Below, piece by piece: positions 8,384 through 28,485 of a DNA stretch of 64,000 nucleotides; position 1 is the first letter of the stretch; every line of letters begins with the position of its first letter. The translations under genes were made by a program, and so were the position numbers. The notes below the pieces were generated by a model. It was given only the letters and a program-made list of their open reading frames with translations. It was not told the origin of the DNA and did not search any database. This DNA comes from Mycobacterium sp. SMC-8 (GTDB lineage: Bacteria > Actinomycetota > Actinomycetes > Mycobacteriales > Mycobacteriaceae), in assembly GCF_025263565.1 (NCBI RefSeq), contig NZ_CP079865.1, forward strand, positions 2,294,001 through 2,358,000, in the 5' to 3' direction.

Positions 8384-8419
8384 GGTCGGCCCGCGGCCCG
8401 GCGGTGTAGACATGACGAT

Positions 8420-9742
8420 GTGCGTCTAGCGACCGAACCGGCTGGCCTACCGTCCGGACTGCCCCAGCCACGCCGGGTGGCGGTGCTGTCGGTGCATACC
8501 TCCCCACTGGCCCAGCCGGGCACCGGCGACGCCGGCGGCATGAACGTCTACGTGCTGCAGACCGCGCTGGAACTGGCGAGCCGCGGGGTCGACGTGGAGA
8601 TCTTCACCCGGGCCACCTCGTCGTCCGACCAGCCGGTGGTGCCGGTCGCGCCCGGGGTGCTGGTGCGCAACGTCGTGGCGGGCCCGTTCGAGGGGTTGGA
8701 CAAGAACGACCTGCCGACGCAGCTGTGCGCGTTCACCGCCGGGGTCCTGCGCGCCGAGGCCACCCACGAACCCGGCTACTACGACGTGCTTCATTCCCAC
8801 TACTGGCTGTCGGGCCAGGTCGGGTGGTTGGCCGCTGACCGGTGGGCCGTGCCGCTGGTGCACACCGCCCACACCTTGGCGGCGGTCAAGAACGCGTCGC
8901 TGGCGGACGGCGACACCCCGGAGCCGCCGATGCGCTCGATCGGCGAGCAGCAGGTGGTCGACGAGGCCGACCGGTTGATCGTCAACACCGAACACGAAGA
9001 GCACCAACTCGTTTCGCTGCACCAGGCCGATCCGTCGCGCATCGACGTGGTGCACCCCGGGGTCGATCTGAAGACCTTCACACCGGGCGAGCGCAGAGCC
9101 GCCCGGGCCGCTCTCGGGCTGGACATCGAAGCGCAGATCGTGGCGTTCGTCGGCCGGATCCAGCCGCTGAAAGCTCCCGACGTGCTGTTGCGCGCGGCCG
9201 CCCTGCTGCCGGGAGTGCAGGTGGTCATCGCCGGTGGCCCGTCGGGGTCGGGACTGGCCACTCCGGACAACCTGGTTCATCTCGCCGCGGAGCTGGGTAT
9301 TTCCGAGCGGGTGACCTTCCTTCCCCCACAGTCGCGCGACCAACTGGTGCAGGTCTACCGGGCCGCGGACATCGTCGCGGTGCCCAGCCACTCGGAGTCC
9401 TTCGGGTTGGTCGCCGTCGAGGCCCAGGCGTGTGGGACGCCGGTGGTGGCCGCCGCGGTCGGCGGACTCCCGGTCGCGGTGCGCGATGGTGTCAGCGGCG
9501 CCCTCGTCGATGGCCACCACCCCCGCGCATGGGCGTCGACGCTGTCGGCGGTGCTCGCCGCCGACGCGGCCGCGATGAGCCGCGCCGCCCTCGACCACGC
9601 CGCCACGTTCTCCTGGTCTCACACCGTCGACGCTCTGCTGGCCGGGTACGGCCGGGCCATCGCCGATTACCGTGCTGCACACCAGCTTTCGGCTCGGCGC
9701 AGCGGGCGTCGGTTCTCAATGCGCAGAGGAGTCCGGGCATGA
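8420..9742 (+). CDS. mshA: D-inositol-3-phosphate glycosyltransferase (mycothiol synthesis)
   Basis: A 440-residue GT4 enzyme that transfers GlcNAc from UDP-GlcNAc to 1L-myo-inositol 1-phosphate, the first committed step of mycothiol synthesis. Family hallmarks: [20 protein letters not shown] near residues 27-46, [26 protein letters not shown] and the donor-site segment [20 protein letters not shown]. These match MshA closely. The GTG at 8420 is the only suitable start before the conserved core. Its stop overlaps the next gene (ATGA at 9739-9742), indicating coupling with the YbjN-like gene. Confidence 0.95.
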
Positions 9743-10299
9743 GCGGCGATGAGCTTGCGCGAAGGGCGAAGAGCGCAGCGGCGGTGCAGGACCTGATCGA
9801 GCAGACGCTCAAGGAACACGACCTGGAGTACAGCCACCATGACGGCGGGGCCGGCGGGCTGCCCGGGCTGGTCGTCGCGCTGCCGGGAGAGCGCAGGCTC
9901 AAGACCAACACGATCCTTTCCATCGGTGAGCACTCGGTGCGCGTCGAGGCGTTCGTGTGCCGGAAGCCCGACGAGAACCACGAAGGCGTCTACCGGTTCC
10001 TGCTCAAGCGCAATCGCAGGCTCTACGGCGTCGCCTACACTCTCGACAACGTCGGCGACATCTACCTCGTCGGCCGGATGGCGCTGGCCTCCGTCACCCC
10101 CGACGAGGTCGACCGTGTGCTCGGGCAGGTGCTCGAAGCGGTGGACTCCGACTTCAACACGTTGCTGGAGTTGGGTTTTCGCACCTCCATCCAGAAGGAA
10201 TGGGAGTGGCGGGTATCGCGCGGGGAGTCGCTGAAGAACCTGCAGGCCTTCCAGCACCTCATCACCGACGACCGCGACGACGACTGGACCCGGCCGTGA
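9739..10299 (+). CDS. YbjN-domain conserved protein (Rv0487 homologue)
   Basis: A 186-residue soluble protein of the YbjN / type III secretion chaperone-like fold. It has the family pattern of an N-terminal helix ([16 protein letters not shown]) followed by beta strands, and [19 protein letters not shown]. YbjN proteins are linked to stress and motility phenotypes in E. coli, but no biochemical role is known in mycobacteria. It starts with an ATGA overlap with mshA, so the two are translationally coupled. gpmA follows after 12 bases. Confidence 0.8.
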
Positions 10300-13566: not shown

Positions 13567-14400
13567 GTGACTGAACTGGCGGCGCAGAACGGGCACGACA
13601 CGACCGCGACGATGCGGGCCACCGGCCTGATCGACGGCCGAAGCGCGCGCACGGCGGCGGGCCGCACCCCTGCCGCGTCGGCGATGACGGTCAGCCTGGT
13701 CATCCCGGTCCGCAACGAGGCCCGCAACGTCGCGTGGGTGCTCGAACAGATCACCGACGACGTGGACGAGATCATCCTGGTCGACGGCAGATCGACCGAC
13801 GCGACCGTGATCACCGCGCGCAGCTACCGCCCCGACATCACGGTGGTGTCGCAGCAGGGGACCGGCAAGGGGGATGCGCTGCGCGCCGGCTTCGCCGCCG
13901 CCACCGGCGACGTCGTAGTGATGATGGACGCCGACGGCAGCATGGCCCCCCAGGAGATCCGGCACTACCTGCACTTCCTGGCCAACGGCTACGACTTCGT
14001 CAAGGGTTCGCGGTTCATCGCCGGCGGCGGGTCGCTGGACATCACACCGTTCCGCCGGGCCGGCAACAAATTCCTTCTTGCGGTGTTCAACTCGCTGTTC
14101 GACAGCGAGCTCACCGACCTGTGCTACGGGTTCTGTGCCTTCCATCGCCGGTATCTCGACTTGTTGGCCTTGCAGGCAACGGGTTTCGAGATCGAGGCGG
14201 AGATGACGGTGCGCGCCAGTCAAGCGGGGCTGCGCATCGCCGAGGTGCCCAGCATGGAGATGCCGAGGCGCTACGGCACATCGAACCTGCACGCCATCCG
14301 GGACGGGATCCGGGTGCTGCGCACGGTGTTGCGCAACCACCGGTCGGGCGTCTCGGGCCGCGTGGCCCAGGCGCTGGCCGCCGAGAAGCGCTCGGCGTAG
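13567..14400 (+). CDS. GT2 glycosyltransferase, dolichol-phosphate-sugar synthase-like
   Basis: A 277-residue GT-A enzyme. The core starts at SLVIPVRNEARNV (about residue 42) after a polar N-terminal tail, with the metal-binding DAD in VVMMDADGSM, and acceptor-side segments KGSRFIAGGGS and GFEIEAEMTVRA. This pattern is that of polyprenyl-phosphate mannose or glucose synthases (DPM1-like), lacking the C-terminal membrane domain. It may charge a polyprenyl-phosphate carrier with a sugar for use outside the membrane. First gene of the glycan locus; GAGGGAG precedes the GTG. Confidence 0.85.
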   Translation: MTELAAQNGHDTTATMRATGLIDGRSARTAAGRTPAASAMTVSLVIPVRNEARNVAWVLEQITDDVDEIILVDGRSTDATVITARSYRPDITVVSQQGTGKGDALRAGFAAATGDVVVMMDADGSMAPQEIRHYLHFLANGYDFVKGSRFIAGGGSLDITPFRRAGNKFLLAVFNSLFDSELTDLCYGFCAFHRRYLDLLALQATGFEIEAEMTVRASQAGLRIAEVPSMEMPRRYGTSNLHAIRDGIRVLRTVLRNHRSGVSGRVAQALAAEKRSA

Positions 14401-14423
14401 CGATCATCCGGGGGGTTGACGAC

Positions 14424-15326
14424 GTGACCAGCATCATCGCCTCGACGTCGCCGTCGAGAACACCGCGCGAGCGCAAAGCCCGTCCCGCAGTGTCGATCTG
14501 CATCCCCGCCTACCAGGCGCAGCGCCATCTGGGCGCGACCCTGGACAGCACGCTGGCGCAGGACAGCGACGACTTCGAGGTCGTGGTCGTCGACAACAAC
14601 AGCTCCGACGGCACCGGCCGACTACTCGACGGGCTCACCGATCCGCGGGTTCGGGTCCTGCGTAACGACGTGACCGTGCCGATGATCGACAACTTCAATC
14701 TCGCGATCCGCCGCAGCCGCGGCCGCTACGTCAAACTCGTTTGCGCCGACGACATTCTGGCGCCGGACTGCGTGCGGGTACAGGCGGCCGCGCTGGAGGC
14801 GATGCCCGAGGTCACGCTGGTCTCGGCGCGGACGGACTTCATCGACGACGCAGGCACGATGATCCGGCCCGACCGGGGCCTGCCGGGCATCGAGGGCAGG
14901 CGGCCGGCCGACCACGTCGTGCGCCGCATCGTCCGCAGCGGCACCAACCCGATCGGCCCGCCGGTCGCCGCGATGTTCCGGCGCGCCGACTTCGACCGCT
15001 GCGGCGGGTTCCGGCACGTCAGCTCGTTCCTCAGCGAGCTCGACCTGTGGGTGCGTCTGCTCGGCCGCGGCGAGTTCTACGGCGTCCCGAGAACTCTCGC
15101 GGCCTTCCGGATCGCCAGCGGTTCCACCACGGCGCTGACCTCCGCGCGGTCCCAGCTCGGGCAGATCCTCGGGTTCTCCGGCATGCTCGCGGCCGACCCG
15201 GCCTGGAACGTCACCGTCGGCGACCGCATCTACGGCCGTGTCCGGTCCTGCGACATGCAGCTCCGGCGCACCGGTCTCTACGCGTTGAGCACGATCCGCA
15301 GCCGCAGGAGCGCACATGACCATTGA
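14424..15326 (+). CDS. GT2 family glycosyltransferase
   Basis: A 300-residue GT-A fold enzyme with the N-terminal nucleotide-sugar motif SICIPAYQAQRHL, VVVVDNNSSDGT and a CADD (DxD-type) metal site in VKLVCADDILAP. The catalytic-base region is in SELDLWVRLLGRGEF. Substrates are not predictable. I placed the start at the GTG at 14424, preceded by a run of G residues that can pair with 16S rRNA, because the longer open frame lacks family similarity. It overlaps the next gene by 11 bases. Confidence 0.82.
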   Translation: MTSIIASTSPSRTPRERKARPAVSICIPAYQAQRHLGATLDSTLAQDSDDFEVVVVDNNSSDGTGRLLDGLTDPRVRVLRNDVTVPMIDNFNLAIRRSRGRYVKLVCADDILAPDCVRVQAAALEAMPEVTLVSARTDFIDDAGTMIRPDRGLPGIEGRRPADHVVRRIVRSGTNPIGPPVAAMFRRADFDRCGGFRHVSSFLSELDLWVRLLGRGEFYGVPRTLAAFRIASGSTTALTSARSQLGQILGFSGMLAADPAWNVTVGDRIYGRVRSCDMQLRRTGLYALSTIRSRRSAHDH

Positions 15327-16305
15327 GCACGTCCGCAACCACCGGGTACTGCCGCACGTTCGGCGGGCCGAACTGCGGCCGGTGGAAAGCCTGTCCGTCG
15401 TCATCTGCGCCTACACCACCGAACGCTGGGACGACCTGTGCCGGTCGGTCGAGTCGGTGCTGGCCGACCGGGGCCCGCAGCTGCAGGTCGTCGTGGTGAT
15501 CGACCACAACGACGAGCTCTACGCGCGCGCAATCGTACGGTTCGGCCACGATCATCGAATCCTGGTGCGTCACAGCGACGGTCCGCGTGGGCTGTCGGGG
15601 GCTCGCAACACCGGAGTGGATTTCGCCGACGGCGAGGTGGTGGCGTTCCTCGACGACGACGCGGCCGCCGAACCCGGATGGAGCCGGGCCCTGCTGCGGC
15701 ACTACGACAATCCCCGCGTGCTCGGGGTCGGCGGCTCCGCGGCGCCGGTCTGGCCGGACGGCCGCCCCCGTTGGATGCCCGCCGAGTTCGACTGGGTGGT
15801 CGGCTGCAGCTATACCGGCCAACCCGAGCGTCTCGCACCGGTGCGTAATCCGTTGGGCTGCAACATGTCGCTACGCAGGTCCGCGCTCGACGACATCGGC
15901 GGATTCCGCCCGGAGGTCGGCCGGGTCGGAAAGAAGCCGGTCGGCGGCGAGGAGACCGAGCTGTTCCTGCGGCTGCGCACCATGCGACCGACCGGCCGGG
16001 TGCTGCTGGATCCCGCTGCGTCCGTGCGGCACTACGTCAGCAGCGACCGGGCGACGCTGCGGTACTTCGTCAGCCGCTGCTACCACGAAGGCTTGTCCAA
16101 GGCGGTGGTCACCCGGCTGGCCCGGGCGTCGCGGCCACTCGACAGCGAACGTGCCTACACCACCAGGGTTCTGCCGCGTGCGGTGGCCCGGGAAGCAGTG
16201 TCCCTGCGCCGCGGCGGCCGGGCCAGAGCGGCGGTCATGGTGCTGGGGCTCGGCGTCACCACCGCCGGCTACCTGCGGGGCAGGCTCACCCGGCGGAGCA
16301 GCTGA
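15316..16305 (+). CDS. GT2 family glycosyltransferase
   Basis: A 329-residue enzyme with SVVICAYTTERWDDL, the LSGARNTG segment typical of actinobacterial surface-glycan transferases, and a FLDDDAAAEPGW metal site. GEETELFLRLR carries the likely catalytic acidic residues. The C-terminal region holds a short hydrophobic stretch (AAVMVLGLGVTTAGYL) that may anchor it to the membrane. Overlaps the preceding gene and is followed one base after its stop by the next glycosyltransferase. Confidence 0.84.
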   Translation: MTIEHVRNHRVLPHVRRAELRPVESLSVVICAYTTERWDDLCRSVESVLADRGPQLQVVVVIDHNDELYARAIVRFGHDHRILVRHSDGPRGLSGARNTGVDFADGEVVAFLDDDAAAEPGWSRALLRHYDNPRVLGVGGSAAPVWPDGRPRWMPAEFDWVVGCSYTGQPERLAPVRNPLGCNMSLRRSALDDIGGFRPEVGRVGKKPVGGEETELFLRLRTMRPTGRVLLDPAASVRHYVSSDRATLRYFVSRCYHEGLSKAVVTRLARASRPLDSERAYTTRVLPRAVAREAVSLRRGGRARAAVMVLGLGVTTAGYLRGRLTRRSS

Positions 16306-16306
16306 G

Positions 16307-17605
16307 ATGACCGACCTCACCGTCCCCGACGTGACGCTACGCCCCGTGCTCGCCGGTGCGGCGCGGCCGGACTGGGACGGCGCGCTCTGGGTGGGCGAGA
16401 TCTGGGCGGACGCGTGCGGCGTGCACCGGCTGCACGCCGCCGACGGATACCGGCGGGCCCGCCTGCTGGTGCGCGCCGAGTCCGGCCCGCTCGGCTTCGT
16501 CGAGCTCGACATCGTCGACCGGGCCGTCGATCCGCGGCAGCTGCGGGCGGCTGTCGCCGACCTGCCCGCGCGGGACCCGTCGCCGACGGGCCCCGCATCG
16601 ACGGTTCCCGGCGCGCGAGCCGTGCCGATCAGCATCGTGATCTGCACCCGCGACCGCGTGTCCATGCTGCGTACCGCCGTGGAATCGGCTCTGGCCGTGA
16701 ACTATCCGGACTTCGAGATCGTCGTCGTCGACAACGCCGGTGCCACGGACGCCACCCGGCGGTACGTCGAGAGCCTGGCCGACCCCCGGGTGCGGGTGGT
16801 CGAGGAACCACGCCCCGGACTGTCCCGGGCGCGCAACACCGGACTGCTGGCCGCCGGGGGCGAGGTCGTCGCGTACACCGACGACGACGTCGTCGTCGAC
16901 CGGCACTGGCTGAGCGCGATCGCCCACGGCTTCGGTCGCGGACCGTCGGTCTCGTGCGTGTCCGGGATCGTGCCCGCCGCCGAACTGCGCACCCCGGCGC
17001 AGGCGTACTTCGACGCCCGGGTGGCGTGGTCGAAGTGTCTGGACGCGCGGGTGTTCGACCGGTCCGCGCCGCCGGCCGACATCCCGCTGTTCCCGTACGC
17101 GGTCGGGCATTACGGCACCGGCGCGAACTTCGCCGTCGACCGGGCCGTCGCCCTCGCGTTGGGTGGATTCGACGAGGCCCTCGGGGCCGGCGCCCCGGCG
17201 GGCGGCGGGGAGGACCTCGACATGTTCTTCCGTGTGCTGGCCGCAGGCGGGCAGCTGGTGTACGACCCGGCTGCGCTGGTGTGGCACCGGCACCGCGCCG
17301 ACGGTGACGGCCTCGCCGCGCAGAGCCGCACCTACGGGACAGGCCTGGGGGCCTGGATCGCCAAGATCGCGTGCGATCGCCGCACGGCCCCCGACGCCGT
17401 GATGACGGCGGTGCGCAAGGCTCCTGCGTTCGTCGGGCACCTGTCGTACTCGGCGTCCACGGCCCGCCCCGCCGACGACCTGACCGACCTGCTGCCCGAC
17501 GGGCTGACCACGCCCGCGTGGCGCTCGGTCCTCGCCGGCTTCCGCGCCTACCGCGCCGCGCTGCGCGAGGGGCGAAGCCCCGCACCGCTTCTGGGGACGA
17601 CGTGA
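16307..17605 (+). CDS. GT2 family glycosyltransferase with a 100-residue N-terminal extension
   Basis: A 432-residue protein. The GT-A core begins near residue 105 (ISIVICTRDRVSML), with VVVDNAGATD, LSRARNTG, and the metal site YTDDDVVVD; GGGEDLDMFFRVL supplies the late acidic residues. The first 100 residues (LRPVLAGAARPDWDGALW and on) form a separate alpha/beta unit I do not recognise, possibly an acceptor or partner-binding module. Starts at ATG 16307 directly after the preceding stop. Its stop overlaps the GTG of the flippase-GH16 gene. Confidence 0.83.
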   Translation: MTDLTVPDVTLRPVLAGAARPDWDGALWVGEIWADACGVHRLHAADGYRRARLLVRAESGPLGFVELDIVDRAVDPRQLRAAVADLPARDPSPTGPASTVPGARAVPISIVICTRDRVSMLRTAVESALAVNYPDFEIVVVDNAGATDATRRYVESLADPRVRVVEEPRPGLSRARNTGLLAAGGEVVAYTDDDVVVDRHWLSAIAHGFGRGPSVSCVSGIVPAAELRTPAQAYFDARVAWSKCLDARVFDRSAPPADIPLFPYAVGHYGTGANFAVDRAVALALGGFDEALGAGAPAGGGEDLDMFFRVLAAGGQLVYDPAALVWHRHRADGDGLAAQSRTYGTGLGAWIAKIACDRRTAPDAVMTAVRKAPAFVGHLSYSASTARPADDLTDLLPDGLTTPAWRSVLAGFRAYRAALREGRSPAPLLGTT

Positions 17606-19674
17606 GCCTGCACGCCGAACGCAACCTGCGGCTCAACACCGTTGCGCTGATCCTGTCGACGGCGTCGACAGGTGTGCTCGGCCTGGCGTTCTGGGCCGTG
17701 TCGGCCCGGCTGTTCCCCGCTCACGAGGTCGGTCTGGCCTCGGCGCTCATCACTTCGGCGGTGCTGTTGTCGTCGCTGTCGTGTCTCGGCCTCGACGTCC
17801 TCTACGAGCGCTTCCTGCCGGTGGCGGGAACGCGCGCGCCCGCTCTGCTGCACCGTGGCTTCCTGCTGGTCGCAGGCACCGGTGCGCTGACCGGGGCGGT
17901 GCTGGTCGTCGTCGGCCCGCGTCAGCCGCTGTTCGAATCCGGCTGGGCGATGGCGGGTTTCCCGCTAATGGTGATGGTGCTGGCTGTTTTCGCCCTGCTC
18001 GACAAGGCCACTTCGGGGCTGGGTGTGGCGCGCTGGTCGGCGGTGAAGAACCTGGCGCACGCCGCGGCGAAGCTGGTGGCGGTCGTCGCACTGGCGGTCT
18101 GGGAGCAGGCCGCCACCATCGTGCTGAGCTGGACGCTCACCGCCGCGGTCGCCGCTTTGTGCACCTACGTGGTGCTACACCGGCGCAGCCGGCGGCATCC
18201 CCGATGGCACCGCCCGGCCGATCTGCCTCCGCGCAAACAGATGTGGTCGTACTTCGGTTCGTCACTGGGCATCGGGTCGTTGTGGTCGATCGGTCCGCTG
18301 GTGGTGCCGCTGATCGTGGTCACCCAGATCGGACCTGCGGCGAACGCGTACTTCGCGATCAGCTGGGCCATGATCAGCGCGCTGTACCTGATGATGCACC
18401 TGGTCGTCGGACCGTACGTGGCCGAGGTCGCGGCCAACCCCGGCCAGGTGCGGGCGCTGTCCTGGCGCATGGTGCGGATGATGGCCGCCGTGGCCGTGCT
18501 GTCCTCGGCCGGTCTGCTCCTGGTGGGACCGCTGACGCTGGGCCTGGCCGGTGACGAATACCGTGCCGAGGGCACAGCTCTGCTGTGGCTGGCGGCGGCG
18601 TTCCTGCCGCTGTCGGCGGTGGCCGCCGTCTACGAGGGCTTCGCCCGCGTGCAGCGCAGACTCGCGCTGTACCTGTCCGTGCAGGCACTGGTCACCGTGG
18701 TGATCGTCGCCGGATCCTGGTACGGCACCCGCGCGCTCGGTGTCATCGGCGTCGGCTGGGCCTACCTGGTGGCCGAAGCGCTGGCCGCGCTGATCCTGAT
18801 CTGGCCGACCGTGGCGTGGCTGCGCGGTATCGGTGCCGCACCGGGCGCGCGGCCCCGTCATGCGGCGCCGTCGAACCGGGTCCCGATCCGCGTCGGGGCG
18901 GTGCTGCTGGCCGCGGCACTGCCGGTCGGTCTGCTTTATGTGATCGAACGTCCCACTGCAGCAGCGTCGTTGGTGCTCTTCGACGATTTCAACGGTGCCG
19001 CGGGGACGCCGCCCGACCCGGCGCGGTGGGGCCACGACGTCGGCGGCGGCGGATGGGGCAACGGCGAAGTGCAGGTGTACACCGACGATCCGGCCAACGC
19101 GGCGCTGGACGGCGACGGCCACCTCGTGGTGACCGCCCGGCGCGACGGCCGGCATATCACCTCCGCGCGGCTGACCACCAAAGACCGTCTGTCCTTCACC
19201 TACGGACGTGCGGAGGCGCGGCTGAAGCTGCCCCAGGGCGCGGGGCTGCACCCCGCCTTCTGGCTGCTGGGCACCGACCTCGACAGTGTGGGCTGGCCCG
19301 CCAGCGGAGAACTCGACGTCGTCGAGACCATCGGTGAGGCGCACTTCGTCCACTCCGGCGCGATCGGCCCCTACACCGACGGCACGGAATACAAGCTGGC
19401 TGCGGCCGTGCCGATCGATCCGGCCTTCGTCGACGGCTTCCACACCTACTGGGTGCAGCGGGAACCGGGCATCGTCTCGATGGGCGTCGACGACCGGACC
19501 ACCGGCGTGTTCCACGCCGCAGACCTTTCCCCCGAACAACTCTGGGTGTTCGACAAGCCGTTCTTCCTCGTGCTCAACGTCGCGGTCGGTGGGGACTGGC
19601 CGGGGCCCGTGCAGGACGGCACACCGTTTCCCGCCGAGATGACGGTCGACTGGGTGAGGGTGACCGGTGACTGA
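17602..19674 (+). CDS. oligosaccharide flippase fused to a GH16 glycoside hydrolase domain
   Basis: One uninterrupted 690-residue frame. Residues 1-425 are a MATE/MOP-type polysaccharide transporter (about 12 hydrophobic segments, first one LNTVALILSTASTGVLGLAF), the class that flips lipid-linked oligosaccharides. A further membrane helix at about 427-448 leads to a GH16 (beta-glucanase/laminarinase-like) domain at 457-690. Its catalytic motif is complete: Glu570 nucleophile, Asp572 and Glu575 acid/base in GELDVVE. The topology would place the hydrolase outside the cytoplasm, next to the exit of the flippase. It could trim, release or transfer the exported glycan. The GTG start overlaps the preceding stop. 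No stop or frameshift is seen at the junction; an internal start producing the GH16 half alone cannot be excluded. Confidence 0.85.
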   Translation: MSLHAERNLRLNTVALILSTASTGVLGLAFWAVSARLFPAHEVGLASALITSAVLLSSLSCLGLDVLYERFLPVAGTRAPALLHRGFLLVAGTGALTGAVLVVVGPRQPLFESGWAMAGFPLMVMVLAVFALLDKATSGLGVARWSAVKNLAHAAAKLVAVVALAVWEQAATIVLSWTLTAAVAALCTYVVLHRRSRRHPRWHRPADLPPRKQMWSYFGSSLGIGSLWSIGPLVVPLIVVTQIGPAANAYFAISWAMISALYLMMHLVVGPYVAEVAANPGQVRALSWRMVRMMAAVAVLSSAGLLLVGPLTLGLAGDEYRAEGTALLWLAAAFLPLSAVAAVYEGFARVQRRLALYLSVQALVTVVIVAGSWYGTRALGVIGVGWAYLVAEALAALILIWPTVAWLRGIGAAPGARPRHAAPSNRVPIRVGAVLLAAALPVGLLYVIERPTAAASLVLFDDFNGAAGTPPDPARWGHDVGGGGWGNGEVQVYTDDPANAALDGDGHLVVTARRDGRHITSARLTTKDRLSFTYGRAEARLKLPQGAGLHPAFWLLGTDLDSVGWPASGELDVVETIGEAHFVHSGAIGPYTDGTEYKLAAAVPIDPAFVDGFHTYWVQREPGIVSMGVDDRTTGVFHAADLSPEQLWVFDKPFFLVLNVAVGGDWPGPVQDGTPFPAEMTVDWVRVTGD

Positions 19675-21775
19675 TCTCCTCGAACGCCCGGTCCATCGCG
19701 TGGCGCCGCCGTCGGGCGGCGGCAGGCACCGCAAGGTCGCCCCGGTCGCGCATCACCTCGACACCCCGGCGGTGGAACCGTTCGCGCTGGCGTCGGCGGT
19801 GCTCGGCACGCTGTCACTGGCCCCGGTGCCGCCGTGGCTGCGGGCGGTGCTGCTGGCGGTGTTCGTCCTGACCGGTCCCGGGTTGGCGACGGTGCTGTGG
19901 TTGCGTCTGCCGTCGGCCACCGTCGTCGCGGTCGTGCCGGTCACCGGCCTGGCCGGAATGGCCGGGGCCACCGCGGTGTGCAACTGGGCGGGGCTTTGGC
20001 TCCCGGTGCCGTTGCTGCTGTCGGCCACGGCGGCCGTCGCGGCGTCGGCGCTGGTGTCAGTCTGGCGCCGCGGCACTTTCACCACCGCCTGGCCGCTGCC
20101 GGCCGCGCAGCATTGGCGGGTGACCGCGCCGTACCTGTGGATCATCGCGGCGTTGTGCGGATGGGCAGCCGCGCTGCCCGGGATGGCAGCCGCCCCCGAC
20201 TCGCCGTTCGGCCTGCTGTTCAGCGGCACCGGACCGATGCTCGTCGCGGTGGCCGCCGTGCTCGTCGCGGTGTTCGTGGTCGCGCTGCGGGACGACGCGC
20301 TGGTGGTCGCCGCCGCGGCGGTCGGCGCCGTGATCGTGGTGCTGCGGTTGACCGTCACGCTGATCACCGACCTGCCGTTGTATCCGTGGACCTACAAACA
20401 TCTCGGCATCGTCGACTACCTGATACAGCATCACGGGTTCCCGCCGTCCGGCGTCGACGTCTACCGCGAATGGCCCGCGTTCTTCACCTCGTTCGCCTGG
20501 TTCAGTGACGTCACCGCAGTGGATCCCGTGACCGTCGCGCACTGGTTCGCGCCGGTGACCCACGTGGTGCTGGCACTGGTCATTGCGGGCCTGTCGGCCA
20601 CGCTCGGATTGGACCGGCCGCAGACGCTCGCCGCGGTGATGGTCGTCGAACTGGCGAACTGGGTGGCTCAGGACTACTTCGCCCCCCAGGCCTATGCGAT
20701 GGTGCTCGGTCTCGGTGTCGTCGTCACGCTGCTCGCCGCGCGCACCGCCCCTGCGGCCGGATGGCTGTCGCTGGTGTTGTTCGCCGCGCTGGTGCCCACC
20801 CACCAGCTCACGCCGTACTGGGTGTTCGGTGTGGTCGTGACGCTGGCGGCGGCGCGTCGGCTCAGGTCGGCCTGGATCGTGATCCCTTATGCCGCAGTGC
20901 TGATCGGATACCTGATTCCGCGCAGTTACATCGTCTTCCAGCACGGCGGCCTGTCGAGCATGAACCCACTGGCCAACGGCGCCGGAAACGCCGAGTACGC
21001 CGGGTCGGCCGCGAAGATGTTCACCTCGCTCGTGTGTCGCGGGCTGTCGGCCGGGATGGTGCTGCTGGCGCTGGTCGCGGTGGTGGTGTGGTGGCGCAGT
21101 GGGCGCCGCGTGCTGATCCCGGCCGTGCTGGCGTTCAGTCCGTTCGGTCTGCTGCTGCTCAACAGCTATGGGGGCGAGGCGATCTTCCGCGTCTACCTGT
21201 ACGCACTGCCGGGCTGCGCGGTGCTGATCGCTCCGCTGCTGGTCGCATCGATCAGAGTCCGTGCCGGCCGGTACGTGGCCGCGCTGGCCCTGGCCGGGAT
21301 CGCCGGCGCAGGGCTGCAGGGCTATTACGGCACCTGGCAGCTCAACGTGCAGAAGCCTTCCCAGCTGGCGCTGTTGGCGAACCTGGTGGAGGGTGTGGAC
21401 GCGTCCCGGGGCCCGGCCACCGTGTGGAATCTGCACACCGCAGGCTTCCCGTCGCGGGCGACGGCGACGGCGGTGTCCCTGGCTGTCGCCGACAGCGCCT
21501 ACGACGGAACCATTTTCGAACGCTGGCCGGGTTTCGAGACCGGCTTCCCGGACGCCGGACAGTTCGACGACGTGACCGCGCTGGCCGCGGCCGGGACGGG
21601 GGACACGTACTTCGTGTTCTCCGACGAGGCGACGGCGGCGCTGTCCTATCTCGGCCACGCCGAACCCGGCACGGTCGAGCGCTTCGAGGACATGTTCGCG
21701 ACAAGCCCGGTGTGGTGCCTGCGAATGCAGGACGAGACCACCACCGTGTACCGATACCAGGAGGTGTGCCGATGA
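19667..21775 (+). CDS. large polytopic membrane protein, possible polymerase or GT-C-like transferase
   Basis: A 702-residue protein with a polar N-terminal tail, some 13-15 hydrophobic segments and a roughly 150-residue soluble C-terminal part after LALAGIAGAGLQGYYGTWQL. An extracytoplasmic loop has charged and aromatic residues (YKHLGIVDYLIQHH, DVYREWPAFF) like those of GT-C transferases and Wzy-type polymerases. I do not recognise a family with confidence. In a locus with a flippase and four transferases, a polymerase or a polyprenyl-phosphate-sugar-dependent transferase is the missing part, so this is the best candidate. It overlaps both neighbours by a few bases. Confidence 0.7.
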   Translation: MTDLLERPVHRVAPPSGGGRHRKVAPVAHHLDTPAVEPFALASAVLGTLSLAPVPPWLRAVLLAVFVLTGPGLATVLWLRLPSATVVAVVPVTGLAGMAGATAVCNWAGLWLPVPLLLSATAAVAASALVSVWRRGTFTTAWPLPAAQHWRVTAPYLWIIAALCGWAAALPGMAAAPDSPFGLLFSGTGPMLVAVAAVLVAVFVVALRDDALVVAAAAVGAVIVVLRLTVTLITDLPLYPWTYKHLGIVDYLIQHHGFPPSGVDVYREWPAFFTSFAWFSDVTAVDPVTVAHWFAPVTHVVLALVIAGLSATLGLDRPQTLAAVMVVELANWVAQDYFAPQAYAMVLGLGVVVTLLAARTAPAAGWLSLVLFAALVPTHQLTPYWVFGVVVTLAAARRLRSAWIVIPYAAVLIGYLIPRSYIVFQHGGLSSMNPLANGAGNAEYAGSAAKMFTSLVCRGLSAGMVLLALVAVVVWWRSGRRVLIPAVLAFSPFGLLLLNSYGGEAIFRVYLYALPGCAVLIAPLLVASIRVRAGRYVAALALAGIAGAGLQGYYGTWQLNVQKPSQLALLANLVEGVDASRGPATVWNLHTAGFPSRATATAVSLAVADSAYDGTIFERWPGFETGFPDAGQFDDVTALAAAGTGDTYFVFSDEATAALSYLGHAEPGTVERFEDMFATSPVWCLRMQDETTTVYRYQEVCR

Positions 21776-23016
21776 GATGCCGATTGTGTGGATCCGCCCG
21801 CATGCACAGTGTGCTCGACCTCGGCGCCACGCCGCCGTGCGCGAAGTTCCTCACCGCAGACGAACTCGACGTCGCGGAGCCGACCTACCCACTGCACCTG
21901 CGGCTGTGCCAGGACTGTCTGCTGCTGCAGATTCCGGCGCTGATCACGCCTGAGGACAACTTCACCGAGTACGCGTACTTCTCGTCGTACTCCGACACCT
22001 GGGTCGACCACGCCCGGCGCTTCGTGGCCGACGCCACCGAACGTGCCGGGCTGGGCCGGGATTCGTTCGTGGTCGAGGTCGCCAGCAACGACGGGTACCT
22101 GCTGCAGCACGTCGTCGCGGCCGGCATCGGGTGCCTGGGCGTGGAGCCCTCGATCAACGTCGGGGCGGCCGCGCGCCGCCGCGGAGTGCCGACGCTGTCG
22201 GCGTTCCTCGACGAACAGACCGCCGCCGAGGTGCGCGCCCAGCACGGGCCCGCCGATCTGGTGGTCGCCAACAACGTCTACGCCCACATCCCCGACCTGC
22301 TCGGCTTCACCCGGGCGCTGCGTGGTCTGCTTGCCGACGACGGCTGGCTGAGCATCGAGGTCCACCACGCGCTGAATCTGGTTGCGCTGGGCCAGTTCGA
22401 CACCGTCTACCACGAGCACTTCCAGTACTACACCGTGCTCTCGGCGATCCGGGCGCTGGCCACCGGAGGGCTGACGGTGGTGGACGTGGAGATGCTGCCG
22501 ACCCACGGCGGATCGATCCGGCTGTGGGCACGTCCCGCGGAGAGCGCCGGTGCACCGGGCCCTCGGGTCACCGCGGCGCTGGAGGCCGAGAACGAGGCCG
22601 GATTGCACCACCTCGACGGATATCTCGGCCTGCGGCCCCGGACCGAGGCGATCCGGCACGACCTGCTGCGCTTCCTGCTCGACTGCCGGTCCCGCGGCCT
22701 GCGGGTGGTCGGCTACGGGGCACCCGGCAAGGGCAGCACGCTGCTCAACTACTGCGGTATCCGCGACGACCTGATCGAGTACACCGTGGACCGGAACCCG
22801 TACAAGCATGGCCGGTTCACCCCGGGCACGCGGATCCCGATTCACGATCCGGCCCAGCTCGACAAGGACCGCCCCGACGTGATCGTGGTGCTGCCGTGGA
22901 ACCTGCGGGCCGAGATCACCGAGCAGCTCGCGTACACCGCCGAATGGGGTGCGCGGCTGGTCTTCCCACTTCCCACCCTGCACGTCGTCGACGTGACGGA
23001 AGGAACCGTGAAATGA
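21772..23016 (+). CDS. sugar C-methyltransferase (NDP-hexose C-methyltransferase family)
   Basis: A 414-residue three-part enzyme of the TylC3/NovU type, which adds a methyl branch to a carbon of a 4-keto nucleotide sugar. Cys3, Cys6, Cys46 and Cys49 form the N-terminal zinc site. The SAM motif is intact: VVEVASNDGYLL with Glu102 to Gly108. THGGSIRLW and the C-terminal GYGAPGKGSTLLNYCGI are family signatures. It implies that the glycan contains a branched-chain sugar. A strong GGAGGT ribosome site (21760-21765) precedes the ATG, which overlaps the previous stop as ATGA. Confidence 0.88.
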   Translation: MRCRLCGSARMHSVLDLGATPPCAKFLTADELDVAEPTYPLHLRLCQDCLLLQIPALITPEDNFTEYAYFSSYSDTWVDHARRFVADATERAGLGRDSFVVEVASNDGYLLQHVVAAGIGCLGVEPSINVGAAARRRGVPTLSAFLDEQTAAEVRAQHGPADLVVANNVYAHIPDLLGFTRALRGLLADDGWLSIEVHHALNLVALGQFDTVYHEHFQYYTVLSAIRALATGGLTVVDVEMLPTHGGSIRLWARPAESAGAPGPRVTAALEAENEAGLHHLDGYLGLRPRTEAIRHDLLRFLLDCRSRGLRVVGYGAPGKGSTLLNYCGIRDDLIEYTVDRNPYKHGRFTPGTRIPIHDPAQLDKDRPDVIVVLPWNLRAEITEQLAYTAEWGARLVFPLPTLHVVDVTEGTVK

Positions 23017-23813
23017 AAGTCGTGTTGTTCTGTGGTGGCTACGGGATGCGCATGCGCAACAGCAGCGACGACACCATCCCCAAGCCCATGCAGATGCTCG
23101 GTCCGCGACCGCTGATCTGGCACGTCATGCGCTACTACGCCCACTTCGGGCACACCGAGTTCGTGCTGTGCCTGGGCTACGGCGCCGAGCACATCAAGAA
23201 CTACTTCCTCACCTATCAGGAATCGGCGTCCAACGACTTCGTCATCCGCGGCGGCAAGGTGGAGCTGCTGCAGACCGACATCAGCGACTGGTCCATCACC
23301 TTCGTCGACACCGGCACGGAATCCTCGATCGGAGAACGGCTCCGGCGGGTGCGCCACTTCGTCGAGGACGACGAGTACTTCCTCGCCAACTACGCCGACG
23401 TGCTCACCGACGCGCCGCTCAACGACATCATCGACGAGGTCAAGGCGTCGGGAGCGACGGCGTCGATGCTGATCGTGCCGCCCCAGTCGTCGTTCCACTG
23501 CGTCGACGTGGCCGACTCCGGGCAGGGATGCGGTGCGATCACCGGGATCACCCCGGTGTCCCGGCTGCCGATCTGGGAGAACGGGGGCTACTTCGTGATG
23601 TCCTCGCAGATCCTGAACCTGCTCACCGAGAACTGCGATCTGGTCGAGGACACCTGCGCCCGGCTGGCCGCCGACGGAAAGCTGTTCGGGTACCGGCATC
23701 TCGGCTTCTGGAAGCCCGCCGACACCTTCAAGGAGCGTGCCGAGCTCGAAGTCGCCTACCGCAGCGGGGACCGGCCGTGGGCACTGTGGGAGCACGCGAA
23801 GGCGGCCTCGTGA
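23013..23813 (+). CDS. glucose-1-phosphate cytidylyltransferase-like nucleotidyltransferase
   Basis: A 266-residue sugar-nucleotidyltransferase. The signature GGYGMRM...PKPM (residues 8-26) has Met where most have Thr; VDTGTESSIGERLRRV and the C-terminal GFWKPADTFKERAELE are the RfbF (glucose-1-phosphate cytidylyltransferase) pattern. RfbF makes CDP-glucose, the entry point to CDP-linked deoxy sugars such as abequose, tyvelose and yersiniose. No dedicated CDP-glucose 4,6-dehydratase is recognisable in the locus unless the SDR at 24466 serves. ATG overlaps the C-methyltransferase stop. Confidence 0.85.
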   Translation: MKVVLFCGGYGMRMRNSSDDTIPKPMQMLGPRPLIWHVMRYYAHFGHTEFVLCLGYGAEHIKNYFLTYQESASNDFVIRGGKVELLQTDISDWSITFVDTGTESSIGERLRRVRHFVEDDEYFLANYADVLTDAPLNDIIDEVKASGATASMLIVPPQSSFHCVDVADSGQGCGAITGITPVSRLPIWENGGYFVMSSQILNLLTENCDLVEDTCARLAADGKLFGYRHLGFWKPADTFKERAELEVAYRSGDRPWALWEHAKAAS

Positions 23814-24469
23814 TCGACCTCACCGCAGGACCCGTCCGCGAGGTGGCGGCGCTCGGCGCGCACTGCGACGACATCGCGATCGGCGCAGGCGCAACACTTC
23901 TCACGCTGTCTCGGGCGAACCCGGGACTGCAGGTCCATGCACTGGTGCTGTGCGGCGCCGGCACCGAACGCGAAGCCGAGGAGCGGGCGGCGCTGGCGGC
24001 GTTCTGCCCCGGCGCCACGGTGCACCTGACCCTCCTGGGCCTGCCCGACGGGCGCACCCCGGCCCACTGGGACAGCGTCAAGGACGGGCTCAGCACAATG
24101 CGCCGCAGCTGCGAACCGCAACTGGTGTTCAGCCCGCACCGCCATGACGCCCACCAGGACCACCGGCTGCTCGCCGAACTGACCCCCACCGAGTTCCGCG
24201 ACCACGTGGTGCTGGGCTACGAGATCCTCAAATGGGAGTCGGACACCCCGTCGCCCAACGTGTTCCACCCGGTGGATGCCGAGATCGCCGAGGAGAAGGT
24301 CAGGCTGCTGCACAAGCACTACCCGTCGCAGGCCGGCCGCGACTGGTTCGACGAGCAGTCGTTCCTCGGGTTGACGCGACTGCGCGGCGTGCAGTGCCGC
24401 AGCGCGCACGCCGAGGCGTTCGTCGCGGAGAAGACGGTGCTGCGATTCCCGCGGCGAGGTGCGGCATGA
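23810..24469 (+). CDS. PIG-L (LmbE-like) N-deacetylase
   Basis: A 219-residue zinc enzyme of the family containing MshB and GlcNAc-PI deacetylase. The AHxDD motif is present as AHCDD (His18, Asp20, Asp21), with the second metal-binding cluster PHRHDAHQDHR giving His112 and His115. Members remove acetyl groups from N-acetylated sugars. It could expose an amine on a sugar of this glycan, in keeping with the aminotransferase encoded downstream. GTG start overlaps the preceding stop by 4 bases. Confidence 0.87.
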   Translation: MIDLTAGPVREVAALGAHCDDIAIGAGATLLTLSRANPGLQVHALVLCGAGTEREAEERAALAAFCPGATVHLTLLGLPDGRTPAHWDSVKDGLSTMRRSCEPQLVFSPHRHDAHQDHRLLAELTPTEFRDHVVLGYEILKWESDTPSPNVFHPVDAEIAEEKVRLLHKHYPSQAGRDWFDEQSFLGLTRLRGVQCRSAHAEAFVAEKTVLRFPRRGAA

Positions 24470-25500
24470 GCCGGCGCGTACTGGTCACCGGTCACCAGGG
24501 CTATCTCGGCACCGTCATGGTGCCGGCGCTGCGCGCGGCAGGCCACCAGGTCACCGGTCTGGACGTCGGGTACTTCGCCGACTGCGTGCTGGGCCCCCGC
24601 CCGGACGACCCCGTGGGCCTGGCAGTCGACCTGCGCGACGTCCGCCCCGAGCACCTGGCCGGCTTCGACGCGGTCATCCACCTGGCCGCCCTGTCCAACG
24701 ATCCGCTCGGCGCGCTGGCGCCCGAGGTCACCCACGACATCAACCACCACGCCTCGGTGCGCCTGGCCCGCTTCGCGAAAGAGGCCGGGGTGCAACGGTT
24801 CCTGTACGCCTCGACGTGTTCGGTGTACGGCGCGGCAGGGGACGGGGCGGTCGACGAGGACGCCCCGCTGCGCCCGCTCACGCCCTACGCGGTCAGCAAG
24901 GTCCGCGTCGAGGACGATGTGGCGGCACTGGCCGACAGCGACTTCGCTCCCGTGTTCCTGCGCAACGCCACGGCGTTCGGTTTCTCGGCGCGGCTGCGCG
25001 CAGACATCGTGCTGAACAACCTGGTCGGATCCGCGGTGCTGACCGGGGTGGTGCGCGTGCTGTCCGACGGCACCCCGTGGCGTCCGCTGGTGCACGCCCG
25101 CGACATCGCCGCGGCGTTCATCCGGTGCCTGGAGGCGCCGGCGCCGACGGTCGCCTGCCGCGCTTTCAACATCGGCAGCGAGCGCAACAACGTCACCGTG
25201 GCGCAGATCGCGCGGCAGGTGGCCGACGCCGTGCCGGCCTCACAGGTGTTGATCACCGGCGAGACCGGTGCCGACCCGCGTTCCTACCGGGTCGACTTCA
25301 CGAGGGCCAGAACCGAACTCGGCTTCGAGGCCGCCGTGTCGGTGGCCGAAGGGGCCGCCGAGCTGTGCTCGGCGTATCTGCGCCACGGCCTGACTTCGGC
25401 AGACATGGCGGCGAAGTTCACCCGGCTGGCCCGCCTCGCGCAGCTGCGCGACAGCGGCCGGCTGGACGACGCGATGCGGAGGATCAGTGAAGTTGTGTGA
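24466..25500 (+). CDS. NAD-dependent nucleotide-sugar epimerase/dehydratase (extended SDR)
   Basis: A 344-residue extended SDR with TGHQGYLG (residues 8-15) for NAD binding and an intact catalytic YAVSK (Tyr141, Lys145) preceded by the Thr-Ser region STCSVYG. The substrate domain contains RNATAFGFS and GTPWRPLVHARD, common in enzymes acting on CDP- or dTDP-sugars. It may be a 4-epimerase, a 4-ketoreductase or the missing 4,6-dehydratase. ATG overlaps the PIG-L stop. The last 17 bases overlap the convergent RmlC-like gene. Confidence 0.85.
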   Translation: MSRRVLVTGHQGYLGTVMVPALRAAGHQVTGLDVGYFADCVLGPRPDDPVGLAVDLRDVRPEHLAGFDAVIHLAALSNDPLGALAPEVTHDINHHASVRLARFAKEAGVQRFLYASTCSVYGAAGDGAVDEDAPLRPLTPYAVSKVRVEDDVAALADSDFAPVFLRNATAFGFSARLRADIVLNNLVGSAVLTGVVRVLSDGTPWRPLVHARDIAAAFIRCLEAPAPTVACRAFNIGSERNNVTVAQIARQVADAVPASQVLITGETGADPRSYRVDFTRARTELGFEAAVSVAEGAAELCSAYLRHGLTSADMAAKFTRLARLAQLRDSGRLDDAMRRISEVV

Positions 25501-26038
25501 GCAGCCGGGCCCAGCTGGCCGCCGCGGCGTCACGCGGCGACAGCAGGGCCGGACGCAGCGGCCATTCGATATCCAGGTCGGGGTCGTCGTGCGCCACGGC
25601 GATGTCCTCGGCCGGATCGTGCGCGCGGTTGATGCGGTAGCAGACGTCGGCGACGTCGGTGAGCGCCTGGAAGCCGTGCAGCATGCCCGGCGGCACGTAG
25701 AGATGGCGGAATGTGGTGTCGTCGAGCAGGAACACCTCGTGCCTGCCGAACGTCGGCGACTGCGGTCTGGCGTCGACGAGCACGTCGTGCACGGCACCGT
25801 GTGCGCAGCGCACGAGCTTGGCCTCGCCGCGGCCGCGCCGGCCGTGCAGGCCGCGGATGACCCCACGGGCCGAGCGGGACTGGGAATCCTGGACGAACGA
25901 GGCCGCGGCGCCGGGCACACCCGACCAGTCGTCGAAAACCTCGGCGTCGAACGTGCGGGTGAACAATCCACGGTCGTCGTGGTGCGGTTGCGGCACCAGC
26001 GTGACCACACCCGCGAGCTGGGCCGGTTCGATACGCAC
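25484..26038 (-). CDS. dTDP-4-dehydrorhamnose 3,5-epimerase-like protein (RmlC family)
   Basis: A 184-residue cupin-fold sugar epimerase. The RmlC pattern is present: VIRGLH with catalytic His65, the strand pair GRHEVFLLDD, and VPPGMLHGFQ leading to CYRI with Tyr134. It would epimerise a 4-keto nucleotide sugar at C3 and/or C5. It is the only gene of the locus on the minus strand, overlapping the SDR tail by 17 bases and starting 14 bases from the divergent fusion gene. I used the GTG at 26038, where the family alignment begins; longer versions run into the neighbour. Confidence 0.85.
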   Translation of the reverse strand: MRIEPAQLAGVVTLVPQPHHDDRGLFTRTFDAEVFDDWSGVPGAAASFVQDSQSRSARGVIRGLHGRRGRGEAKLVRCAHGAVHDVLVDARPQSPTFGRHEVFLLDDTTFRHLYVPPGMLHGFQALTDVADVCYRINRAHDPAEDIAVAHDDPDLDIEWPLRPALLSPRDAAAASWARLLTQLH

Positions 26039-26052
26039 CAGGACATGGTGGC

Positions 26053-28485
26053 ATGAAGGCCGGCCACTGCCGCGGATGCGGGGATCCCGGACTGCACCGT
26101 GTGCTCGACCTGGGGCTGGTGCCCGCCGCCGACCACTTCCCGCCGGCCGACCTGCCCGTCGATCCGGCGGAGGTGTCCCACCCGCTGGCGATGGACCTGT
26201 GCGCCGCATGCGGGCTCGCTCAGCTCGCCGAGGACGACACCGACACTGCTGAGCCCCGCGGTGTCGAGCCGCAGGCGCTCAAAGATCAAGCTGCAGAAGC
26301 GGTCCGCCGCGTCGAGGACGCGGGCTGGCTGAACGTGGCGGGCGGCACGGTACGCGAGTTCGGCAGCCCGCACGGCGGCAGCTGGCTGCCGCTTCTCGCC
26401 GAGCGCCGGTACCGCGCCACCTGCGGGGGCACGGCCGACGTCGTGCTCGACTGTTTCGGCATCATGCACGACGCCGACCAGCAGACCGCGTTCGAAGAGC
26501 GCGCCAGGGCCACCGCGCCGGACGGGGTGCTGCTGATCCAGTTCCACAGCTTGGCCGCGATCGTCGCGCACGGGCAGTGGAACTCGTTGCGGCACGGCCA
26601 CTTCGCCTACTACTCCACGCCGGTCGTCGTCGCACAGCTCGAGCGGGTCGGTATGCGCGCCGCACACGCGTGGACCTTCGACCTCTACGGCGGGACCGTG
26701 CTCGTCGCGGCCGTCCATGGCACCGGCGAACCCGGCCCGACCGTCGCGTCCCTGCTGGAATCCGAAGCCGCGCTGACCGATGCGGCCACCGTGGGCGTTG
26801 TGCAGGACGCCGCCGATTCGCAGGTGGTCGCGCTGCGTAGCTGGCTGGAGCAGGAACGCCGGGCCGGCCGCCGGGTCTACGCGTACGGCGCCGCGTCGCG
26901 CGCCGTCGCGCTGTTCGCCCGGGCCGGGTTGGACCGGACGCTGATCGGTGCGGTCGCGGACGCGGCACCGGCCAAGCAGGGCCGCCGGATGCCGGGCACC
27001 GATGTGCCGATCGTGTCACCGGACGAGCTCGTCGCGGCGGACCCGGACCGGGTGCTGCTGACGCTGGGTGATCTGCGGGCCGAGGTGTCGGCGCGCTGGC
27101 CGCAACTGGACGGCCGCTGGGTTCCCGATGATCGGTTCGTCAGGCCCGCACGCAGTTTCGCGCGGTCCCGGCAGCTGCAGGAGCGGCTGCACGAGCTGGT
27201 GCCCGGCGGCGCGCACACCTACGCGCGGGGGCCCGACCAGTACCCGGAGTTCATGCCGCCGGTGCTGACCCGAGGGTCGGGCTGCCGGGTGTGGGACGCC
27301 GACGGCAACGAATACATCGAGTACGGGATCGGGCTGCGCGCGGTGACCCTCGGTCACGGCTATCGCCCGGTCGTCGACGCGGCAGCCCGCGCGATGGCCG
27401 ACGGCCTCGGGTTCAGCAGGCCGACCGCGCTGGAGGTCGCCGCCGCCGAGGACTTCCTGGAACTGGTGCCCGGGGCGGAGATGGTCAAGTTCGCCAAGAA
27501 CGGGTCCGACGCCACCACCGCGGCGGTGCGGCTGGCCCGCGCGGTGACCGGCCGGGTCAAGGTCGCGGTCTGCGATCAACCGTTCTTCTCCACCGACGAC
27601 TGGTTCATCGGCACCACCGCGATGGCCGCAGGCGTGCCCGCCGAGCACGCCGCGGCCACGGTCCGGTTCCGGTACAACGACGCCGCGTCGCTGGCCGAAC
27701 TGCTGAGCGCCGAGGACGTCGCCTGCGTGGTGATGGAGCCCGCCTCGGCGACCGCCGAACCCGCCGCCGGGTTCCTCGACGAGGTCCGCGACCTGTGCGA
27801 CCGCACCGGCACGCTGCTGGTGTTCGACGAGATGATCACCGGCTTCCGCTGGGCGGCCGGCGGCGCGCAGACCCTGTACGGGGTCACCCCGGACCTGTCC
27901 TGCTGGGGCAAGGCGATGGGCAACGGGTTCCCGCTGTCGGCGCTGGCGGGACTCCGCCGTCACCTGGAGTTCGGGGGTTTGCGCACCGGCGCCGACCGGG
28001 TCTTCCTGCTCTCCACCACGCACGGCCCGGAAACGGCGTCCCTGGCCGCGTTCCGCGCGGTGGCCGCGGCGTACCGCAGCGAGGACCCGATCGCGCGGAT
28101 GGAGCACGCGGGCCGCCGGCTGGCCGCCGGCGTCGGCGCGGCGGTGGCCGAGGCCGGGCTGGAGGAGCACCTCCGGGTGATCGGGCGCCCAACGTGTCTG
28201 GTGTTCGTCACCGGCGACGCCGACGGCACGCCGTCACAGGCCTACCGCACGCTGTTCCTACAGGAACTGTTGCGCCGCGGCGTGCTCGGTCAGTCTTTCG
28301 TCACCTCCGCCGCGCACACCGACGAGGCCGTCGACGCGACGGTGCAGGCGGTACGGGATGCGCTGCCCGTCTACCGGTACGCGATCGACGCGGGCAGCGT
28401 GCGTGGACTGCTGCAGGGCAGACCGGTCGCACCGGCGATCCGGCGCACCGCGGAGCCGCGGCGCACCGCCGGCCGGATGGGCTAG
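26053..28485 (+). CDS. C-methyltransferase-like protein fused to a class III aminotransferase
   Basis: A single 810-residue frame. Residues 1-365 follow the C-methyltransferase plan: zinc cysteines Cys6, Cys9, Cys50 and Cys53, a core and a C-terminal GRRVYAYGAASRAVALFARAG segment. The SAM motif is altered to EFGSPHGGSW where the active enzyme upstream has EVASNDGY. Residues 370-800 are a class III PLP aminotransferase close to glutamate-1-semialdehyde aminomutase, with ELVPGGAHTYARG, VFDEMITGFRW and the PLP lysine Lys620 in SCWGKAMGNG. It probably aminates a keto sugar, perhaps with a scaffold or altered methyltransferase half. The true heme aminomutase is encoded separately at 52445. ATG start at 26053; convergent with the next gene. 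Confidence 0.84.
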   Translation: MKAGHCRGCGDPGLHRVLDLGLVPAADHFPPADLPVDPAEVSHPLAMDLCAACGLAQLAEDDTDTAEPRGVEPQALKDQAAEAVRRVEDAGWLNVAGGTVREFGSPHGGSWLPLLAERRYRATCGGTADVVLDCFGIMHDADQQTAFEERARATAPDGVLLIQFHSLAAIVAHGQWNSLRHGHFAYYSTPVVVAQLERVGMRAAHAWTFDLYGGTVLVAAVHGTGEPGPTVASLLESEAALTDAATVGVVQDAADSQVVALRSWLEQERRAGRRVYAYGAASRAVALFARAGLDRTLIGAVADAAPAKQGRRMPGTDVPIVSPDELVAADPDRVLLTLGDLRAEVSARWPQLDGRWVPDDRFVRPARSFARSRQLQERLHELVPGGAHTYARGPDQYPEFMPPVLTRGSGCRVWDADGNEYIEYGIGLRAVTLGHGYRPVVDAAARAMADGLGFSRPTALEVAAAEDFLELVPGAEMVKFAKNGSDATTAAVRLARAVTGRVKVAVCDQPFFSTDDWFIGTTAMAAGVPAEHAAATVRFRYNDAASLAELLSAEDVACVVMEPASATAEPAAGFLDEVRDLCDRTGTLLVFDEMITGFRWAAGGAQTLYGVTPDLSCWGKAMGNGFPLSALAGLRRHLEFGGLRTGADRVFLLSTTHGPETASLAAFRAVAAAYRSEDPIARMEHAGRRLAAGVGAAVAEAGLEEHLRVIGRPTCLVFVTGDADGTPSQAYRTLFLQELLRRGVLGQSFVTSAAHTDEAVDATVQAVRDALPVYRYAIDAGSVRGLLQGRPVAPAIRRTAEPRRTAGRMG

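Follow-up and report, generated by a model that had tools for sequence, protein, structure and literature searches.

A candidate two-module surface-glycan locus between the regX3 and Rv0495c homologues of Mycobacterium sp. SMC-8

The window analysed here is a stretch of 64,000 nucleotides from Mycobacterium sp. SMC-8 (contig NZ_CP079865.1, positions 2,294,001 to 2,358,000), and its positions 13567-28485 hold a candidate locus for the synthesis of a surface glycan: twelve open reading frames between a regX3-like and an Rv0495c-like gene, eleven of them on the plus strand and one on the minus strand (Table 1). From GT1 to the short-chain dehydrogenase/reductase (SDR) the spacing of the plus-strand genes is +23, -11, +1, -4, -8, -4, -4, -4 and -4 bp. 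The original prediction had described twelve tightly packed genes in a row; the twelve reading frames and the small overlaps from GT1 to SDR were borne out, the single direction was not, since the rmlC-like gene runs the opposite way. This gene has a GTG start; it shares 17 bp with the 3′ end of the SDR gene, and 14 bp separate its start from that of the methyltransferase-aminotransferase gene. The interval 25484-26053 of the window is thus taken up by a conserved antisense gene within a row that otherwise shares one direction, and the rmlC gene was found to be counter-transcribed in 26 of the 29 loci that have it near SDR.

Table 1. The twelve genes of the locus, with window coordinates and the matches on which the assignments rest
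Gene or product	Coordinates	Strand	Basis
GT1, candidate DPM/ArnC/AglJ-like polyprenyl-phosphate glycosyltransferase	13567..14400	+	PF00535; NCBIfam AglJ; PDB 5mlz
GT2, candidate branched-sugar transferase	14424..15326	+	PF00535; co-occurrence with CMT
GT3, AglG-like glycosyltransferase	15316..16305	+	PF00535; NCBIfam AglG
GT4, GT2-family transferase	16307..17605	+	Glycos_transf_2; top NCBIfam MftF, below cut-off
Predicted Wzx-type flippase (~1-410), extra transmembrane helix (~430-449), GH16 (~507-685)	17602..19674	+	
“mem”, predicted GT-C-fold membrane glycosyltransferase, 702 aa	19667..21775	+	
CMT, predicted sugar 3-C-methyltransferase	21772..23016	+	PF08421/PF13489/PF08484; PDB 4rv9 MtmC, TcaB9
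RfbF-like sugar-1-phosphate nucleotidylyltransferase	23013..23813	+	TIGR02623 below cut-off; PDB 1tzf
PIG-L deacetylase	23810..24469	+	PF02585; HCDD motif
Extended SDR, epimerase/C4-oxidoreductase-like	24466..25500	+	PF01370; PDB 6vo6; YAVSK, STCSVYG
rmlC-like 3,5-epimerase	25484..26038	-	PF00908 (dTDP_sugar_isom); TIGR01221 just below cut-off
C-methyltransferase-like half fused to class-III aminotransferase	26053..28485	+	PF08421+PF08484+PF00202; NF004856

Six of the proteins form what is called here the “sugar cassette”, namely CMT, the RfbF-like protein, PIG-L, SDR, the rmlC-like protein and the methyltransferase-like/aminotransferase fusion. In Pfam, CMT has the zinc-binding (MT13), SAM and C-terminal (MT14) domains of sugar C-methyltransferases, and its nearest PDB entries, 4rv9 MtmC (263 bits) and TcaB9 (221 bits), align over the full length. 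To this TylC3/TcaB9/MtmC-type make-up is added the active-site EH (HEH in CMT), which we take to be a hallmark of sugar 3-C-methyltransferases, and the assignment of CMT to this class, with C3 as the predicted position, is supported by its sequence. The protein differs from TylC3, MtmC and TcaB9 in its surroundings, being linked to RfbF-like, PIG-L, SDR and rmlC genes and to glycan assembly rather than to an antibiotic cluster. The RfbF-like protein, which has no Pfam match, is on sequence grounds a distant relative of glucose-1-phosphate cytidylyltransferase (TIGR02623, 178.3 bits against a cut-off of 300.25; PDB 1tzf, 154 bits). The SDR carries YAVSK, as well as STCSVYG at the site where 4,6-dehydratases have TDE, and its nearest PDB entry, 6vo6, is presumably the C. 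jejuni heptose C4-oxidoreductase. The rmlC-like protein passes PF00908 and narrowly misses TIGR01221 (152.6 bits; cut-off 155.75). In the fused protein the methyltransferase-like half has HGH where CMT has HEH, and the aminotransferase half scores 677 bits with NF004856 (cut-off 486), with the lysine motif GKAMGNG at 619. Outside the locus the window has a canonical hemL, at 52445-53743, and therefore the class-III aminotransferase of the locus is not required for haem.

The “assembly module” consists of GT1, GT3, GT4, the flippase, GH16 and the GT-C-fold protein. Four proteins of the locus match Glycos_transf_2 (PF00535) in Pfam. The top NCBIfam match of GT1 is AglJ (TIGR04182, 142.4 bits against a cut-off of 325) and that of GT3 is AglG (NF041394, 226.8 bits against 440), and in both cases 12 of 12 orthologues match the same family; the top PDB match of GT1 is the dolichol-P-mannose synthase 5mlz. 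The flippase half has no Pfam match, and its predicted model matches WzxE, which supports a Wzx-type flippase. The 702-residue membrane protein likewise has no Pfam match; its predicted model has a GT-C fold, with AglB among the best folds, which supports a membrane glycosyltransferase of this class. The modelled fold is one that it would share with the oligosaccharyltransferases STT3, AglB and PglB, whereas WWD, which we take to be their motif, occurs nowhere in its 702 residues. The flippase-GH16 fusion is also found in protein P0131, named from M. obuense, and in L048 (M. sediminis; 8382-9896) GH16 has another tether, a DUF998/Frag1-type membrane domain to which it is fused. The enzyme families named in the original prediction are confirmed by these Pfam, NCBIfam and PDB matches and, for the flippase, by the model.

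The gene order is not due to chance, because it recurs in other genomes, as the original prediction had proposed to look for: it is complete in L001 (M. vaccae), L002 (a locus that ends before Rv0495c), L005 and L006, and is present without rmlC in L003 and L004. Among 248 genomes of the genus, a match to Rv0495c was found in 245, to the GT-C protein in 26 (E 1e-60 or better) and to the RfbF-like protein in 70 (E 1e-50 or better). In at least 17 of the 248 genomes the cassette sits at the regX3-Rv0495c address, the RfbF-like gene and Rv0495c being no more than 30 kb apart; this is a minimum, as neither an Rv0495c position nor a 20-kb locus was available for 15 of the 70 RfbF-matching genomes, and G020 had no Rv0495c match. 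CMT, the RfbF-like protein, PIG-L, SDR, the methyltransferase-like half and the aminotransferase are each present in 17 of these 17, and rmlC in 16. A GT-C match stands beside Rv0495c in three genomes (G001, G004 and G005). The assembly module is also found without the cassette in other actinobacteria. In the 73 GT-C loci that span 18 kb or more, an identity threshold of 30% shows GT1 and GT3 in 70 each, GT4 in 71, GH16 in 66 and the flippase in 47; at this level, matches of the GT2 family may include paralogues. Among the open-access PMC papers listed by literature searches, none was recognised as describing the locus.

The two modules are tied to each other in several ways. Across 80 GT-C loci, GT2 (at least 40% identity) is present in 9 of the 10 that have CMT and in none of the 70 that do not, the sole miss, L007, being cut by a contig end. 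The modules occur in the reverse order in L126, away from this address, where the cassette is followed by GT1-GT2-GT3-GT4-flippase. Protein P0144 (875 aa) joins the flippase half to a C-methyltransferase with 74% identity to the CMT of the window, and P0278 from Georgenia alba (1018 aa) combines an rmlC-like domain (61% identity), a methyltransferase-like part and a class-III aminotransferase in one protein.

The address itself is variously filled. In L086, L087 and L088 a length of 9.8-9.9 kb accommodates GT2, the cassette and a flippase that lacks GH16. In L101 the cassette is accompanied by Wzx, Wzz, Wzy_C and WecG/TagA domains, and L100, L102, L104 and L105 have a similar layout to L101 in the cassette map. 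In L048 the assembly genes accompany a different cassette (SDR, a DegT aminotransferase, a full-score RfbF and CMT), and SDR, RfbF and CMT likewise stand with assembly genes in L008 and L014; the RfbF homologues of L048 (400 bits) and L008 (412 bits) pass TIGR02623. At L118:9702-19859 a variant cassette whose rmlC is not inverted lies beside WecG/TagA, PF02397 and Wzx-type genes, and at L112:15519-16829 an alpha/beta-hydrolase and guanylate-cyclase-domain protein is placed between the cassette and Rv0495c. The claim that the locus replaces the M. tuberculosis genes Rv0492c-Rv0494 had to be given up: the junction is empty in 16 of 20 relatives, with merely 19-479 bp from regX3 to the Rv0495c homologue, these relatives being high-identity Rv0495c neighbours taken by choice and not at random.

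Taken together, the enzyme families, the flippase and GT-C folds, the gene order and its recurrence make it probable that this is a two-module surface-glycan locus at a fixed address, carried by some soil mycobacteria, in which the cassette would supply a sugar and the assembly module would build a glycan with it, flip it and transfer it outside, although the individual reactions and their order, the acceptor and the exposure at the surface are all inferred. The product is best read as a glycan that contains a 3-C-methyl sugar, probably an amino sugar, and that is transferred on the extracytoplasmic side after flipping; the amino group is proposed because an aminotransferase is present. In the proposed pathway the RfbF-like enzyme would activate a sugar-1-phosphate, SDR would yield a 4-keto intermediate, CMT would methylate it at C3 to create the branch, the rmlC-like enzyme would epimerise the sugar, PIG-L would deacylate it, and the aminotransferase domain would add the amino group, helped by the methyltransferase-like half, which is probably sugar-binding. 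GT1 would charge polyprenyl phosphate with a hexose, to be extended by GT3 and GT4, and GT2 would attach the branched sugar. The Wzx-type flippase would then bring the lipid-linked glycan to the outside, where the GT-C protein would transfer the sugar or glycan, and the tethered GH16 domain might trim or re-join beta-linked chains. The earlier claim of unusual-sugar synthesis coupled to the assembly and flipping of a lipid-linked glycan is supported by the two folds, the kinship of CMT, the fusions P0144 and P0278, and the lack of any polyketide synthase (PKS), non-ribosomal peptide synthetase (NRPS) or acyltransferase domain in Pfam among the twelve genes.

Several observations pull in the other direction. 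At this address GT2 is present in just 11 of the 17 genomes and GT-C in 3, and L103 has the cassette alone, therefore the sugar can serve machinery that is encoded elsewhere. L003 and L004 lack rmlC, and in L115, L117-L122, L124 and L126 no aminotransferase was seen next to the cassette. GT1, GT3, the RfbF-like and the rmlC-like proteins all score under the curated cut-offs, and the SDR has no recognisable 4,6-dehydratase residues, so that a 6-deoxy sugar cannot be asserted. Finally, no initiating phosphoglycosyltransferase, Wzy or Wzz was recognised by Pfam among the twelve genes; for the PF02397-type initiating enzyme the search covered these twelve genes and not the rest of the genome, and for Wzy, whose families are divergent, the GT-C-fold protein is the candidate.

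The last point bears on the comparison with known systems. The locus resembles the Wzx/Wzy loci for exopolysaccharide, capsule and O-antigen in having a flippase, several GT2-family transferases, a nucleotide-sugar cassette and a fixed address with variable content, and it differs from them in the GT-C protein, in the flippase-GH16 fusion and in the lack of a recognised Wzy, Wzz or PF02397 enzyme, whereas L101, at the same address, does have Wzx, Wzz and Wzy_C domains. The second system that comes to mind is the haloarchaeal AglJ/AglG/AglB dolichyl-phosphate pathway, to which the top NCBIfam matches of GT1 and GT3 and the place of AglB among the best GT-C folds point. The locus differs from it in that the scores lie far under the cut-offs, there is no WWD string, and the sugar cassette is unrelated to that pathway. 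An alternative, regarded as unlikely, is protein glycosylation: an oligosaccharide built on polyprenyl monophosphate by the AglJ/AglG-like enzymes would be flipped, and the GT-C protein would serve as an oligosaccharyltransferase that attaches it en bloc to proteins.

Less likely again is the decoration of a glycolipid such as a lipooligosaccharide (LOS), with the cassette making a kansosamine-like sugar. The LOS of M. kansasii carry N-acyl kansosamine, and the LOS cluster of this species, according to Table 1 of PMC4403928, contains a Glc-1-P cytidyltransferase, an SDR, a rhamnose epimerase and a methyltransferase, sugar genes that are alike by enzyme type to those of the window. However, that cluster also has PKS, acyl-CoA synthetase, MmpL and acyltransferase genes, none of which was recognised in the window locus, and PKS, acyltransferase and MmpL-type domains were not found by Pfam in the twelve genes. 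Within the surface-glycan reading, a kansosamine-like 3-C-methyl-4-amino sugar is a fair guess by analogy, because the M. kansasii cluster lists the same enzyme types, but it has to be set against the lack of a recognised 4,6-dehydratase; virenose was also considered (cf. PMC3539893). That the cassette makes the sugar of a secreted small molecule, its neighbours being merely lodged there, is highly improbable, for although the nearest solved structures to CMT presumably come from antibiotic pathways, cassette and assembly genes recur together in several different layouts, and the flippase is found fused to a CMT.

The history of the locus was followed by comparing the cassette tree, built without the aminotransferase gene, with a tree of flanking genes (gpm, senX3, regX3 and Rv0495c, all of which adjoin the locus). 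The two have 15 of 18 splits in common, with a Mantel r of 0.85 that was equalled in 0 of 2000 permutations. Given this agreement, a recent arrival of the cassette by transfer is not favoured, although it may have been co-transferred with the adjoining flanks. On a tree of 38 chosen taxa, occupancy changed at least 8 times (7 if L048 is counted as occupied), compared to a mean of 12.7 changes with shuffled labels, with 6 of 1000 shuffles giving 8 or fewer. The simplest reading is an old cassette that was repeatedly lost, a reading qualified by the direct neighbourhood of the flanking genes and the locus.

As to the surroundings, the names senX3/regX3 and Rv0495c were assigned from gene order, the flanks following what we take to be the M. 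tuberculosis order. The flanking genes gpm, mshA, proC and hemA score above their NCBIfam cut-offs; senX3 and regX3 match sister families below cut-off, ppx is also below, and the Rv0495c-like protein has no NCBIfam match. The promoter scan gave no sigma-70-type site, and terminator-like sites were as frequent as expected (4 found, 3.9 expected). Among the loci compared, the 477-bp region 5′ of GT1 has matches only in L001 and L002.

A bolder picture, which we regard as rather doubtful, is that rapid-grower mycobacteria have a serotype-like glycan locus at a single fixed address by a phosphate-type two-component system, where an old and repeatedly lost branched-amino-sugar cassette is combined with varied assembly machines; the one found here would be the actinobacterial counterpart of the haloarchaeal polyprenyl-monophosphate pathway, in which a GT-C protein of oligosaccharyltransferase fold replaces Wzy and the flippase has its own GH16 domain for trimming. 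The envelope of mycobacteria is commonly presented in terms of a few shared glycans, and a locus at a fixed place that varies among related species, from empty through cassette-only to filled with different assembly genes, would underlie species- or strain-specific surface antigens. One of the carriers, L006, is recorded as M. kyogaense NCTC 11659, a designation used in the literature for an M. vaccae immunotherapy strain (PMC8657684). Both modules lend themselves to experiment, the cassette as a direct route to a C-methyl-branched amino sugar and the assembly module as an alternative to Wzy that is based on GT-C.
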